The notes under the pieces: model-generated
Databases searched by the model: none
Seen by the model: only the letters and a program-made list of their open reading frames with translations
What the model was told of the DNA's origin: nothing
Assembly (NCBI GenBank): GCA_037951105.1
Contig: JBAMJV010005504.1
Location: 1-64,000 of the forward strand
Direction: 5' to 3'
Source: Echinarachnius parma
Taxonomy: Eukaryota > Echinodermata > Echinoidea > Clypeasteroida > Echinarachniidae
DNA length: 64,000 nt
Shown: positions 13,042-47,023 of the stretch, piece by piece
How the letters are laid out: every line of letters starts with the position of its first letter
Numbering within the stretch: the stretch's first letter is position 1
Translations under genes and position numbers: made by a program

Positions 13042-13155
13042 TTGTCTCACAGTTAACTCCTGTAAATCCAGGCGCACATGCACAGGTGTAAGAAGTTACG
13101 CCATCATTACAGGATCCTCCGTTTAGACAGGGTGAAGTGAAGCAGTCGTCTATGT
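13042..13155 (-). CDS. EGF exon A1 (calcium-binding type)
   Basis: A TTTACAG acceptor and a GTGAGT donor bound 114 bp, phase 1/1. The product is [15 protein letters not shown], then [17 protein letters not shown]. Type A exons have cysteines at residues 4, 9, 15, 24, 26 and 35 of the 37 full codons. The leading IDD and C-x-D/N-x4-Y-x-C match the calcium-binding, Asp/Asn-hydroxylated EGF class, and CLNGGSC matches the O-fucose consensus. A1 has Phe where most copies have Ser (residue 5). Confidence 0.88.
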
Positions 13156-13516
13156 CTGTAAATGGTCAGTATCAAACAATTTATGAATTCACATAGGTGA
13201 CCATCATATTTTTGTAATCAAATGCAATTGACCTCTGATACTTCTTGCAAGGTAGTTTGTTCGATTTGAATATTTTCAACTTTCGAGGAAAATAGGTTTC
13301 TTTGCCAAACTTTGCACATGTGCCTATGACAACTTTCTATATTTTGTTTTTGATTGAGTAATTTGTCGAAAATGTGGATTCTAGATAGCTACGTAGCTTA
13401 TAAATGTAGATAATTATATAGTTAACTCAATTTTTTAAAATTTTTATAGAAGGTGGATTTAGCGCCTTTTGAAACTGAGCTCTTCAATTATCTAGTATGG
13501 AAATATACTGCATCAC
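13156..13516. other. Intron between A and relic B, present in every unit
   Basis: Unit-specific intron with no coding signal. Its copies lie to the right of each A exon through the array. Confidence 0.5.
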
Positions 13517-13628
13517 TCGTTTTATAGTTAACTTCTTCCTAACCTTCCACACGCACACGTGTAAGAATTGGTTCGATCAGAACATGTTCTACCATTTTGG
13601 GAGTTTGAAGTGAGCCTGTGGTCTATGT
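13517..13628 (-). pseudogene. Relic EGF exon B (first of the array)
   Basis: Starts after a usable acceptor with IDDSLTSNSQNGRTC, then SYTCAC, so Cys1 and Cys2 are gone, and the frame meets TAA where the GF.G..C end should be. The true donor is lost. Copies sit just left of each C insertion: near 15276, 17587, 20351, 22128, 23904, 25088, 26856, 28627, 30403, 32172, 33935, 35709, 37486, 39255, 42694 and 45125. The shared stop shows B was dead before the array grew. Its [10 protein letters not shown] core ties it to type E. Confidence 0.75.
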
Positions 13629-13661
13629 CTGTATTATATTGATTGTGATTAAAAAAATAAT

Positions 13662-13870
13662 GTGGGTGTCCGTCAAACATTTCCGAGGCCAAGAGCTGCA
13701 CTGCTTATTAAGTCGTGTCCTCGGGGGCAAAGACCATTGGTTATGATGGTCGAGACCGCTGAGAAGTGGACTCTAGTCCGTACAAAGTGGAAGAGGGGCC
13801 ATTTTTCATCACAAGCGGAGAGGGGGGGGGGGGGGGGGGGCGGGCAGCCCCTCCCCCTAGGTACGCCTAT
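13662..13870 (+). mobile_element. Insertion C, poly-G-bearing repeat (first copy)
   Basis: Runs from GTGGGTGTCCGTCAAACA to CCCTAGGTACGCCTAT and holds a long G run. It is bounded by a near-perfect direct repeat, TGATTGTGATTAAAA on the left and TGATTGGGATTAAAA on the right, which looks like a target-site duplication of about 15-17 bp. Copies start at 15421, 17732, 20496, 22273, 24049, 25233, 27001, 28772, 30548, 32317, 34080, 35854, 37631, 39400, 42839, 43501 and 45270. A GTG-started open frame runs through it, but G-run length changes and lack of any domain argue against coding. Confidence 0.7.
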
Positions 13871-14059
13871 GATTGGGATTAAAACATGAATTTATATAGG
13901 GAAAATGACTATTACAGATACTGTGCATCAAATACTTGCAGTACGATTATCTGGAAGATCAGAGGGGTACAATTACAACGATGAAATAAATATAAACATA
14001 TAAGTAACCGTATATTTCGATTTAATATTGTACAGCCAACAAGACGATATGATACTCAC

Positions 14060-14173
14060 TTATTTCACAGTTAACTCCTGTAAATCCAGCCTCACATGTA
14101 CACGTGTAAGAATTGACCTCTTCAGTACAGGTTCCTCCATTTAGACAGGGTGTAGTGGAGCAGTCGTCTATGA
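14060..14173 (-). CDS. EGF exon D1
   Basis: A TTTACAG acceptor and a GTGAGT donor bound 114 bp, phase 1/1. The product is [15 protein letters not shown], then [21 protein letters not shown]. Type D has the six cysteines and IDD start of calcium-binding EGF modules and the O-fucose consensus CLNGGTC, but Glu replaces Asp/Asn at the hydroxylation site. D1 is the V/TTP variant (EEVNSYT, STTP). Confidence 0.88.
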
Positions 14174-14332
14174 CTGTAAATGGTCAGTATCAAACAATTT
14201 AGGTAATTCACACAGGTGACCATCATATTTTGGTAATCAAATGCAACCGCGTTGCGATACTTTATATTACAATTAAGGTAGTTTGTACGATTTGTATATG
14301 CTACTTTTCAATATGGAAGTATATCGCATCAC

Positions 14333-14437
14333 TCGTTTGACAGTTATCTCCCTCATAACCAGCCACACATGCACACGTGTAGGAATTGGTTCGATCAGTA
14401 CAGGTTCCACCATTTTGAGTGGGGCATTCGTCTAAGT
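14333..14437 (-). CDS. Five-cysteine EGF-like exon E1 (doubtful splicing)
   Basis: A TTCATACAG acceptor precedes 105 bp, phase 1/1, coding [12 protein letters not shown], then [21 protein letters not shown]. The PC pair that normally holds Cys2 is missing, leaving five cysteines and an odd one unpaired. The donor is GTGATG, weaker than the GTGAGT of A and D. The open frame continues past the donor to a stop, so a retained or terminal form is conceivable. Real exon, rarely used exon or relic are all possible. Confidence 0.5.
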
Positions 14438-14544
14438 CTGTATGAATTAAACATTGCATTTGAATGTGGAAAATAACTATTAGATAATAATTATACTGTT
14501 CATCTAATACTTGCAATACGTCTTTCAATTCAATTTCAAGATTT

Positions 14545-44656: not shown

Positions 44657-44770
44657 TTGTTTCACAGTTAACTCCTGTAAAAACAGGCGCACATGCACAG
44701 GTGTAAGAATTGACGCCATCACTACAGGATCCTCCGTTTAGACAGGGTGAAGTGGAGCAGTCGTCTATGT
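44657..44770 (-). CDS. EGF exon A17 with lost glycine
   Basis: [10 protein letters not shown] variant in which APGF has become APVF, removing a Gly that EGF modules nearly always keep between cysteines 5 and 6. All six cysteines and the GTGAGT donor remain. Confidence 0.82.
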
Positions 44771-45614
44771 CTGTAAATGGTCAGTATCAAACTATTTAGG
44801 AATTCACATAGGTGACCATCATATTTTTGTTATCAAATGCAATTGACCTCTGATACTTCTTGCAAGGTAGTTTGTTCGATTTGAATATTTGTTCAACTTT
44901 CGAGGAAAATAGGTTTCTTTTGCCCAACTTTGCACATGTGCCTATGATAACTTTCTATATTTTGTTTTTGAGTGAGTAATTTGTAAAAATGTGGATTCCT
45001 AGATAGCTACGTAGCTTATAAATGTAGATATATAGTTAACTAAATTTTTCTTTTCATAGAAGGTGGATTTAGAGCCTTTTGGAACTGAGCTCTTCATATC
45101 TAGTATGGAAATATACTGCATCACTCGTTTTATAGTTAACTTCTTCCTAACCAGCCACACGCACACGTGTAAGAATTGGTTCGATCAGAACATGTTCTAC
45201 CATTTTGGGAGTTTGAAGTGAGGCTGTCGTCTATGTCTGTATTATATTGATTGTGATTAAAAAAATAATGTGGGTGTCCGTCAAACATTTCCGAGGCCAA
45301 GAGCTGCACTGCTTATTAAGACGTGTCCTCGGGGGCAAAGACCATTGGTTATGATGGTCGAGACCGCTGTGAAGTGGACTCTAGTCCGTACAAAGGAAAA
45401 GGGGCCATTTTTCATCAAAAGCGGAGGGGTAGGGGGATGGCAGCTCCTCCTCCTAGGTACGCCTATGATTGGGATTAAAACATGAATTTATATAGGGAAA
45501 ATGACTATTACAGATACTGTGCATCAAATACTTGCAGTACGATTATCTGGAAGATCAGAGGGGTACAATTACAACGATGAAATAAATATAAACATATAAG
45601 TAACCGTATATATC

Positions 45615-46099
45615 GATTAAAAGTGAGCAAAGACAAATGGGATTCCAACGGGATTCGAACCCGAGACCCCCGGATTGCTAGACCGGTGCTCTACCGACTG
45701 AGCTATAGAAAACCCTACGACGGCGTTCTTCCCAGAAACCCCTTAATTCATCATTGCTCAAGTATTCAGAAGCTTTATAAACCTGACATAAACCCGAAGC
45801 GGATTAAAATCAACTTGGGGATAAATGCGAGGGATCGCCGAAGCGATACAGCTTTTTGTAATAATTAATTCAAACATATAGGGAAACTGACCAAGAATAT
45901 ATTGTGATTAAAAGTGAGCAAAGAAAAATGGGATTCCAACGGGATTCGAACCCGAGACCTCCGGATTGCTAGACCGGTGCTCTACCGACTGAGCTATAGA
46001 AAACCCTACGACGGCGTTCTTCCCAGAAACCCCTTAATTCATCATTGCTCAAGTAGTCAGAAGCTTTATAAACCTGACATAAACCCGAAGCGGATTATA
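45615..46099 (-). mobile_element. Two tandem tRNA(Ala)-like SINE copies inserted next to exon D18
   Basis: tRNA-like segments at 45639-45715 and 45930-46006 (minus strand) each have an A box, a perfect B box and an anticodon loop CTAGCAA that would read AGC (Ala). Acceptor and anticodon stems hold mismatches. About 290 bp separate the copies, and the non-tRNA flanks repeat too. They interrupt the unit intron between TATAT and TTCGATTTAAG. Related to the copy at 352-570. Confidence 0.75.
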
Positions 46100-46145
46100 A
46101 TTTCGATTTAAGATTGTACAGCCAAGAAGACGATATGATTCTCAC

Positions 46146-46259
46146 TTATTTCACAGTTAACTCCTGTAAATCCAGCCTCACATGTACACGTGTAAGAATT
46201 GACCTCTTCAGTACAGGTTCCTCCATTTAGACAGGGTGAAGTGGAGCAGTCGTCTGTGC
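46146..46259 (-). CDS. EGF exon D18
   Basis: V/TSP variant whose start is TDDC instead of IDDC; CEAGFTG, six cysteines, GTGAGT-type donor (GTGAGA). Last D exon of the array on the 5' side of the gene. Confidence 0.84.
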
Positions 46260-46418
46260 CTGTAAATGGTCAGTATCAAACAATTTAGGTAATTCACATA
46301 GGTGACCATCATTTTTTTGTAATCAAATACAATCGTCTTGCGATACTTTATATTACAATTAAGGTAGTTTGTACATTTTGTATATGTTAATTTTCAATAT
46401 GGAAGTATAACGCATCAC

Positions 46419-46523
46419 TCCTTTGACAGTTATCTCCCTCATAACCAGCCACACATGCACACGTGTAGGAATTGGTTCGATCAGTACAGGTTCCACCATT
46501 TTGAGTGGGGTATTCGTCTAAAT
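46419..46523 (-). CDS. EGF-like exon E17, four cysteines only
   Basis: LDEY replaces LDEC, so Cys1 is lost as well as Cys2. Open frame intact, GTGATG donor. It is unlikely to fold as an EGF module and supports the view that E exons are under little constraint. Confidence 0.4.
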
Positions 46524-46909
46524 CTGTATGAATTAAACATTGCATTCGAATGTGGAAAATAACTATTAGATAATAATTATACTGTTCATCTAATACTTGT
46601 AATACGACTTTAAATTCAATTTCAAGATTTGTTGGTGTAGTGGTCTAGTCGTCTATGTCTGTAAATGGTCAGTATTTTATATTGATATTGTTGCGACTTT
46701 TACAGAGTCACTTGTCAGCAATAGTGTGGTGATATGCTGACATGATAATCAATGCCCGATTTTCAAATTTCAGCTGCTAGTCTGTTCATTATATTGCCTA
46801 CAGTCTCTCTCATACATTATATTACAAAGATGAAATAAATGTAAACATATAAGGAACCGTTTATATCGATTTAAGATTGTAAAGCCAATAGGACGATGTT
46901 AAAACTCAC

Positions 46910-47023
46910 TTGTTTCACAGTTAACTCCTGTAAATCCAGGCACACATTCACAGGTGTAAGAATCGACCCCATCAGTACAGGTTCCTCCATTTTGACAGGG
47001 TGAAGAGGAGCAGTCGTCTATGA
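46910..47023 (-). CDS. EGF exon A18
   Basis: [15 protein letters not shown], then [21 protein letters not shown]; phase 1/1, GTGAGT donor. CSSSPC fits the O-glucose consensus (C-x-S-x-P-C), which the other A exons lack, and CQNGGTC fits O-fucose. More diverged from the array than the other copies. Confidence 0.88.

Follow-up and report, generated by a model that had tools for sequence, protein, structure and literature searches.

The stretch of DNA analysed here, referred to as the window, comprises the first 64 kb of a 531-kb contig (C5498) in the 1.2-Gb genome assembly of Echinarachnius parma, which consists of 14,790 contigs. The window contains a long series of EGF-domain exons followed in the direction of transcription by a SEA domain, and much of the series is a tandem array in which exons and introns are repeated together. 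The array is nested at several levels, includes a four-unit duplication as assembled, and has units of the same kind on a second contig. It is likely that we are dealing with a recently expanded and still changing array of EGF exons inside a large EGF-SEA gene, which probably encodes a cell-surface protein. All array comparisons were made within this one assembly.

When a 1769-bp unit was used as a query, its matches ran along 12.8−48.4 kb of the window. The array as a whole, delimited by unit alignment, is as follows:

12655..48421, minus strand, tandem array of 18 unit segments of ~1.77 kb (1184−3445 bp with deletions and insertions)

The EGF exons of the array are all on the minus strand. 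The order of elements within a unit is B-A-C-D-E on the plus strand, which reads E-D-C-A-B in the direction of transcription. According to the original prediction, exon A recurs 18 times with a spacing of 1763−1778 bp. Exon-by-exon counting yielded 17 A exons (13042−13155 to 44657−44770) and one A-like exon (46910−47023), so the number holds, but the spacing fits only 10 of the 17 intervals; the other seven measure 2311, 2314, 449, 2951, 3439, 2431 and 2253 bp. The irregularity is due to insertions, a missing A (unit 24817−26000) and two exons present in duplicate, A at 19433/19882 and D at 43242/43904. As also predicted, D (18 copies), E (17 copies) and the introns have been duplicated along with A, although E turned out to be doubtful as an exon. 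Apart from the pair of four-unit blocks described below, units mostly differ from each other by 0.3−8%. The outermost units are more divergent, and private insertions or deletions occur in several units.

Exons A and D are symmetric EGF exons of 114 nt each with phase 1-1 borders, exactly as had been anticipated for the array. All 35 window copies (17 A and 18 D) have an AG acceptor and an open frame, and a GTGAG donor follows 16 of the 17 A and 16 of the 18 D exons, giving canonical splice sites in 32/35; the exceptions are one A with a GC donor and two D exons cut by an insertion. Six cysteines are present in 17/17 A and 16/18 D copies. One peptide of each exon was compared with the Pfam EGF profile and scored 37.9 bits (A) and 38.2 bits (D), against a cut-off of 21.5. 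A strict filter for EGF exons retained 34 intact phase 1-1 exons in 12.6−48.5 kb and 54 in 1−104 kb of the contig. The O-fucose consensus occurs in 34/34 intact array exons and the EOGT-type sugar consensus in 33/34. The individual exons are:

13042..13155, minus strand, A EGF exon 1 (strict EGF-exon filter)
14808..14921, minus strand, A EGF exon 2, donor GC not GT
17119..17232, minus strand, A EGF exon 3
19433..19546, minus strand, A EGF exon 4
19882..19995, minus strand, A EGF exon 5, doubled, 449 bp from exon 4
21660..21773, minus strand, A EGF exon 6
23437..23550, minus strand, A EGF exon 7
26388..26501, minus strand, A EGF exon 8
28158..28271, minus strand, A EGF exon 9
29935..30048, minus strand, A EGF exon 10
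31704..31817, minus strand, A EGF exon 11
33467..33580, minus strand, A EGF exon 12
35240..35353, minus strand, A EGF exon 13
37018..37131, minus strand, A EGF exon 14
38787..38900, minus strand, A EGF exon 15
42226..42339, minus strand, A EGF exon 16
44657..44770, minus strand, A EGF exon 17
46910..47023, minus strand, A-like EGF exon, the 18th of the original prediction
47937..48050, minus strand, A-like EGF exon, 1027 bp beyond the 46910 exon
14060..14173, minus strand, D EGF exon
16355..16468, minus strand, D exon, 3′ end disrupted by a TTAA-flanked insertion
18669..18782, minus strand, D exon, disrupted by a like insertion and with Cys to Tyr
20896..21009, minus strand, D EGF exon
22673..22786, minus strand, D EGF exon
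24440..24553, minus strand, D EGF exon
25624..25737, minus strand, D EGF exon
27393..27506, minus strand, D EGF exon
29165..29278, minus strand, D EGF exon
30934..31047, minus strand, D EGF exon
32703..32816, minus strand, D EGF exon
34475..34588, minus strand, D EGF exon
36248..36361, minus strand, D EGF exon
38017..38130, minus strand, D EGF exon
39786..39899, minus strand, D EGF exon
43242..43355, minus strand, D EGF exon
43904..44017, minus strand, D EGF exon (doubled)
46146..46259, minus strand, D EGF exon

The remaining elements of the unit are in a different state. None of the 17 E copies has more than five cysteines or a GTGAG donor, the donor being a weak GTGATG, and four copies (29438, 31207, 36521 and 38290) contain stop codons; the E peptide nevertheless matches PF00008 with 25.8 bits, despite falling short of six cysteines. 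Each unit also holds dead exon relics, B and C, which had previously gone unmentioned, and C has stops in 17/17 window copies. Representative copies and two insertions within units are:

27667..27771, minus strand, E exon (one of 17), five-cysteine EGF, donor GTGATG
26856..26967, minus strand, C relic (one of 17), EGF-like pseudo-exon
26090..26154, minus strand, B relic (one of several), truncated EGF exon start
15827..16369, no strand assigned, TTAA-flanked insertion with inverted ends inside D
18140..18683, no strand assigned, like TTAA-flanked insertion in the next unit

A default of three EGF domains per unit was considered and rejected, given the missing cysteine, the GTGATG donor and the stops in 4/17 copies of E. 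Since, for the same reasons, E is a poor exon, and B and C are dead, each unit probably supplies two EGF domains, with E usually skipped. The two insertions have inverted ends, with 27 and 28 of 40 terminal bases matching the opposite end, and the element resembles a piggyBac-type non-autonomous one. Because like insertions with TTAA ends are found in two adjacent units, duplication of the unit probably came after the insertion. The unit intron additionally includes a dispersed repeat (26620−26833, at about 620−833 of the unit), for which 10 matches on nine other contigs, 83−86% identical, were found among the matches listed.

The array could be real and yet mostly passive, a drift-driven, satellite-like growth in a spliced-out, non-essential or decaying part of the gene, and several observations do weigh against the interpretation that its exons are maintained for their product. 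If E were spliced in, the stops in its four copies would truncate that product. Some D exons are broken as well: in addition to the two with insertions, one of which also lacks a cysteine, one D copy on contig C1474 contains a stop. We compared the uniformity of exons with that of intron windows in a collection of 43 aligned segments (≥250 bp and ≥90% identity), two of which, beyond 46.5 kb on C5498, were excluded from both sets. On C5498 (720 intron windows), 30% of windows were as uniform as A or more so, and 3.3% as uniform as D or more so. The corresponding values in the set of three contigs were 71% and 85%, although this set takes in edge segments with a different EGF exon at the D position, which raises diversity. 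In both sets the least diverse element is the dead relic C. Variants number 6 non-synonymous and 4 synonymous in 17 copies of A, and 11 and 3 in 18 copies of D, broken ones included; for A, the pairwise non-synonymous to synonymous ratio goes from 0.50 with 17 copies to 0.63 with 26, and for D from 1.50 with 18 to 1.31 with 29. Thus, array exons appear little more constrained than introns and the signal of selection is weak; strong purifying selection within the array finds no support in these comparisons, and the young age of the copies constrains what a selection test can show. By contrast, all 26 A copies on C5498 and C1474 are open with six cysteines, whereas C is dead in 26/26, and 15 random substitutions in A avoided a stop or loss of a cysteine in 6% of 4000 simulations, which ignored shared ancestry of the copies. 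Furthermore, older EGF exons in later parts of the contig, collected as intact exons only, are intact, and for pairs involving EGF exons at 67−85 kb dN/dS (the ratio of non-synonymous to synonymous rates) is 0.21−0.57 in 23 of 26 cases, as expected if the EGF fold has been retained in the long term. Positive selection on D was also considered (ratios of 1.55−4.0 against A, the A-like exon 46910 and exons 50259 and 53420), but synonymous changes are too few and it is not claimed. On balance, a mostly passive array seems rather unlikely, even though of the alternatives it survives best.

To find out how widely the array exons are distributed, we searched the assembly with core patterns. The A-core pattern (≤3 mismatches) has 26 matches, 17 on C5498 and nine on C1474, and none elsewhere; since the reversed control pattern has none at all, the recurrence of A, with 17 matches in the window, is not due to chance. 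The D-core pattern has 32 matches, 18 on C5498, 10 on C1474, one on C9362 and three, with 3 mismatches, on C1070 and C1204 (control 0). The order of elements on C1474 differs from that on C5498, and its nine A exons represent the assembled part only: the array there is incomplete, because the contig starts in a dispersed repeat. This 1.8-kb repeat at its left end (1−1742) has long matches, 90−95% identical, on 39 other contigs. A 7.3-kb block is present twice on C1474 (99.0% identity over aligned bases, with 444 gap columns) and once on C9362.

At its right end (91865−96295), C1474 shares an end-to-end overlap with the initial 4339 bases of C5498, identical at 97.3% of aligned positions (BLAST pieces 96.6% and 91.5%), so that the contigs appear adjacent and C1474 probably carries a neighbouring gene, that is, a paralogue. 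Adjacency is weakened by other copies of this flank, on C12284 (94%) and at 175.6−178.3 kb of C5498 (~94.5%), in view of which the end overlap could itself be paralogous. For the unit tree, 21 well-covered units (15 from C5498 and six from C1474) of the 43 aligned segments were used, the other 22 having fewer than 1350 aligned positions. Units of the two contigs interleave, the mean identity being 97.6% for units of the same contig and 97.3% for units of different contigs; branch support values were not examined. Such interleaving points to exchange between genes, duplication of a gene together with its array, or allelism. Indeed, C1474 might hold the other allele of the window array, the two alleles coming from one animal: identities between units reach 99.1%, A exons are confined to these two contigs, and a diploid requires two alleles. 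Apart from the end overlap, this is opposed by the 5′ side of the gene (C5498 96−104 kb), which matches contig C7039 (57.8−64.5 kb, colinear) at 93−98%, C1474 being absent among the matches listed. We therefore consider allelism of the two arrays unlikely and prefer a paralogue. Neither the A-core pattern nor a close match to the D-core pattern occurs on C7039. This contig might be an array-less allele, but the compared regions further left (34−44 kb and 17.9−19.8 kb) are only ~73−90% similar to C5498, and an array could lie past the contig end.

Three levels of nesting are present, namely, an ancestral piece of ~1 kb, the 1.77-kb unit and a block of four units. The A block is 89.5% identical to the D block, and C is 86.5% identical to E; based on this resemblance, the 1.77-kb unit is probably an old doubling of a ~1-kb piece, in which A corresponds to D and C to E. 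The A-like exons 46910 and 47937 retain a spacing of 1027 bp. At the upper level, units 8−11 and 12−15 form a four-unit repeat with 10 mismatches in 6947 aligned bases:

25605..32454, no strand assigned, four-unit higher-order block, first copy (alignment to second copy)
32684..39537, no strand assigned, four-unit higher-order block, second copy (ends derived by hand from alignment offsets)

Over 25605−32454 (6.85 kb), a single substitution and two G runs of unequal length separate the copies. Putative allelic or overlapping contigs diverge far more, C5498 differing from C7039 by 2−7% and from C1474 by 2.7% in the end overlap. With one substitution against 2−7%, the duplication of the four-unit block, if real, should be much more recent than the usual divergence of alleles, and one would expect the species to be polymorphic for it. 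Misassembly would yield the same picture of near-identical blocks, which have the look of a falsely repeated or badly resolved stretch, and arrays proved hard to assemble here (C9362 ends in array sequence and C1474 in a dispersed repeat beside the array). In that case, the true array would be shorter or longer and the count uninformative on variation. We find such an error, whether confined to the duplicated block or affecting still more units, improbable, because the divergence and private indels of units outside the block pair show that the whole array is not an echo of one unit, and an array with a different order exists on the second contig.

On the 3′ side of the array, the gene continues with EGF exons 11429 and 12270, the SEA domain and a last EGF domain:

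8328..8513, minus strand, open frame, probable first part of SEA, conserved in paralogues but alone without a Pfam match
6124..6522, minus strand, open frame, second part of SEA domain (Pfam SEA 28.9 bits, cut-off 26.4)
4615..4884, minus strand, open frame, EGF domain after SEA (Pfam EGF_3 28.7 bits, cut-off 28.5; EGF 24.9, cut-off 21.5)
C5498:180776−181114 and 254878−255270, same contig and same strand, SEA exon paralogues

Array exons and the other EGF exons are presumably joined in one mRNA. The SEA exon has 13 matches on nine contigs, including three on C5498 (itself and those at 181 and 255 kb); matches other than itself are at most 71% identical, and four of the 13 contain stops. The paralogues on C5498 suggest a tandem cluster of EGF-SEA genes, and together with the stops they indicate a gene family that is partly in tandem and has some decaying members. 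The non-synonymous to synonymous ratio of the SEA exon 6124−6522 is 0.99 and 1.16 against the paralogues at 181 kb of C5498 and on C9173, and 0.54 against that on C6867; between the paralogues at 181 kb and on C9173 it is 3.7, based on few changes, and four of 10 loci were comparable. For the exon preceding SEA 6124−6522 the ratio is 0.26−0.48 in pairs with the window and 0.32−0.62 otherwise, one pair being identical. These values could reflect either fast or relaxed evolution of SEA. A stretch beside the SEA exons is present twice as near-identical open frames (5418−6006 and 7041−7652). Upstream of the array there is another tandem duplication of ~6.8 kb with EGF exons (55344−57814 and C5498 62180−64641; 57836−60289 and 64617−67062), its stretches being 99.1% and 98.5% identical. 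Separately, COX1 on contig C14600 follows the echinoderm mitochondrial code, with TGA for Trp, AGA for Ser, ATA mainly at Ile positions (judged by eye against a mammalian protein) and AAA once at Asn (one informative site).

Taken together, these results are best accommodated by a scenario where an ancestral block of ~1 kb was doubled into the 1.77-kb unit, A pairing with D and C with E, and units have since been gained and lost through misaligned exchange among copies within the gene, probably also with the neighbouring gene. The dispersed repeat at 26620−26833 may have seeded such exchange. Because A and D have symmetric 1-1 phase, each gain or loss of a unit would add or remove two whole EGF domains with the frame kept. 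The number of units may differ between alleles, as originally proposed; the duplicated four-unit block, the other arrangement on C1474 and the block counts of C9362 and C1474 make this plausible, the contigs being at most putative alleles of the window array. The protein could likewise be a fast-changing surface recognition or adhesion protein, a role with which the SEA domain and the quick divergence of some SEA paralogues are compatible. A more far-reaching version, which we regard as doubtful, is that the receptor ectodomain is a fast-mutating coding variable-number tandem repeat (VNTR), with an individual-specific number of EGF pairs and units moving between adjacent EGF-SEA genes, serving in immune or gamete recognition.

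Several echinoderm systems invite comparison. The sea urchin fibropellins and fibrosurfins are EGF-rich extracellular proteins, and fibropellin carries CUB and avidin-like domains; the gene described here differs in having a SEA domain. Fibropellin- and fibrosurfin-like genes are within the top 15 positively selected genes according to PMC5521101. The same paper describes EBR1_5, of the egg bindin receptor family, as a positively selected surface protein of sea urchins with repeated extracellular domains and SEA; repeated domains together with SEA are shared with our gene, but the repeats are hyalin there and EGF here. The SpTransformer (Sp185/333) immune genes of the purple sea urchin lie in unstable, repeat-rich clusters that differ in composition from animal to animal (PMC10887614). 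The likeness, drawn from description, is that of an echinoderm and unstable repeat-rich DNA; in SpTransformer, however, the variation concerns entire small genes and repeats inside a single coding exon, whereas in the present case entire EGF exons of a large gene are involved. For an array of EGF exons in echinoderms, no prior description was found in titles and abstract openings of the open-licence literature, which is not proof of absence. If confirmed, a whole-exon coding VNTR in a family of echinoderm surface proteins would lend itself naturally to the study of length change in modular receptors, combining satellite-like nesting with units common to two contigs, probably neighbouring genes, in arrays of a type that assemblies readily collapse or break.

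Among known systems, the array comes closest to the KIV-2 repeat of the human lipoprotein(a) gene (LPA), the unit of which holds whole exons with introns. Like the array in E. parma, it is a protein-coding tandem repeat built from large genomic units within a single gene, and the same features recur here: near-identical tandem units with whole exons and introns, and symmetric exon phase. The two differ in that the LPA module is a kringle, whereas here it is EGF, in a 1.77-kb unit that has two good exons alongside dead relics and is further organized into a four-unit block. Allelic variation in number, proven for LPA, may also exist in the present array. Whole-exon coding VNTRs are thus already known, and the interest of this array lies in its nesting and in its place in an echinoderm EGF-SEA gene family.

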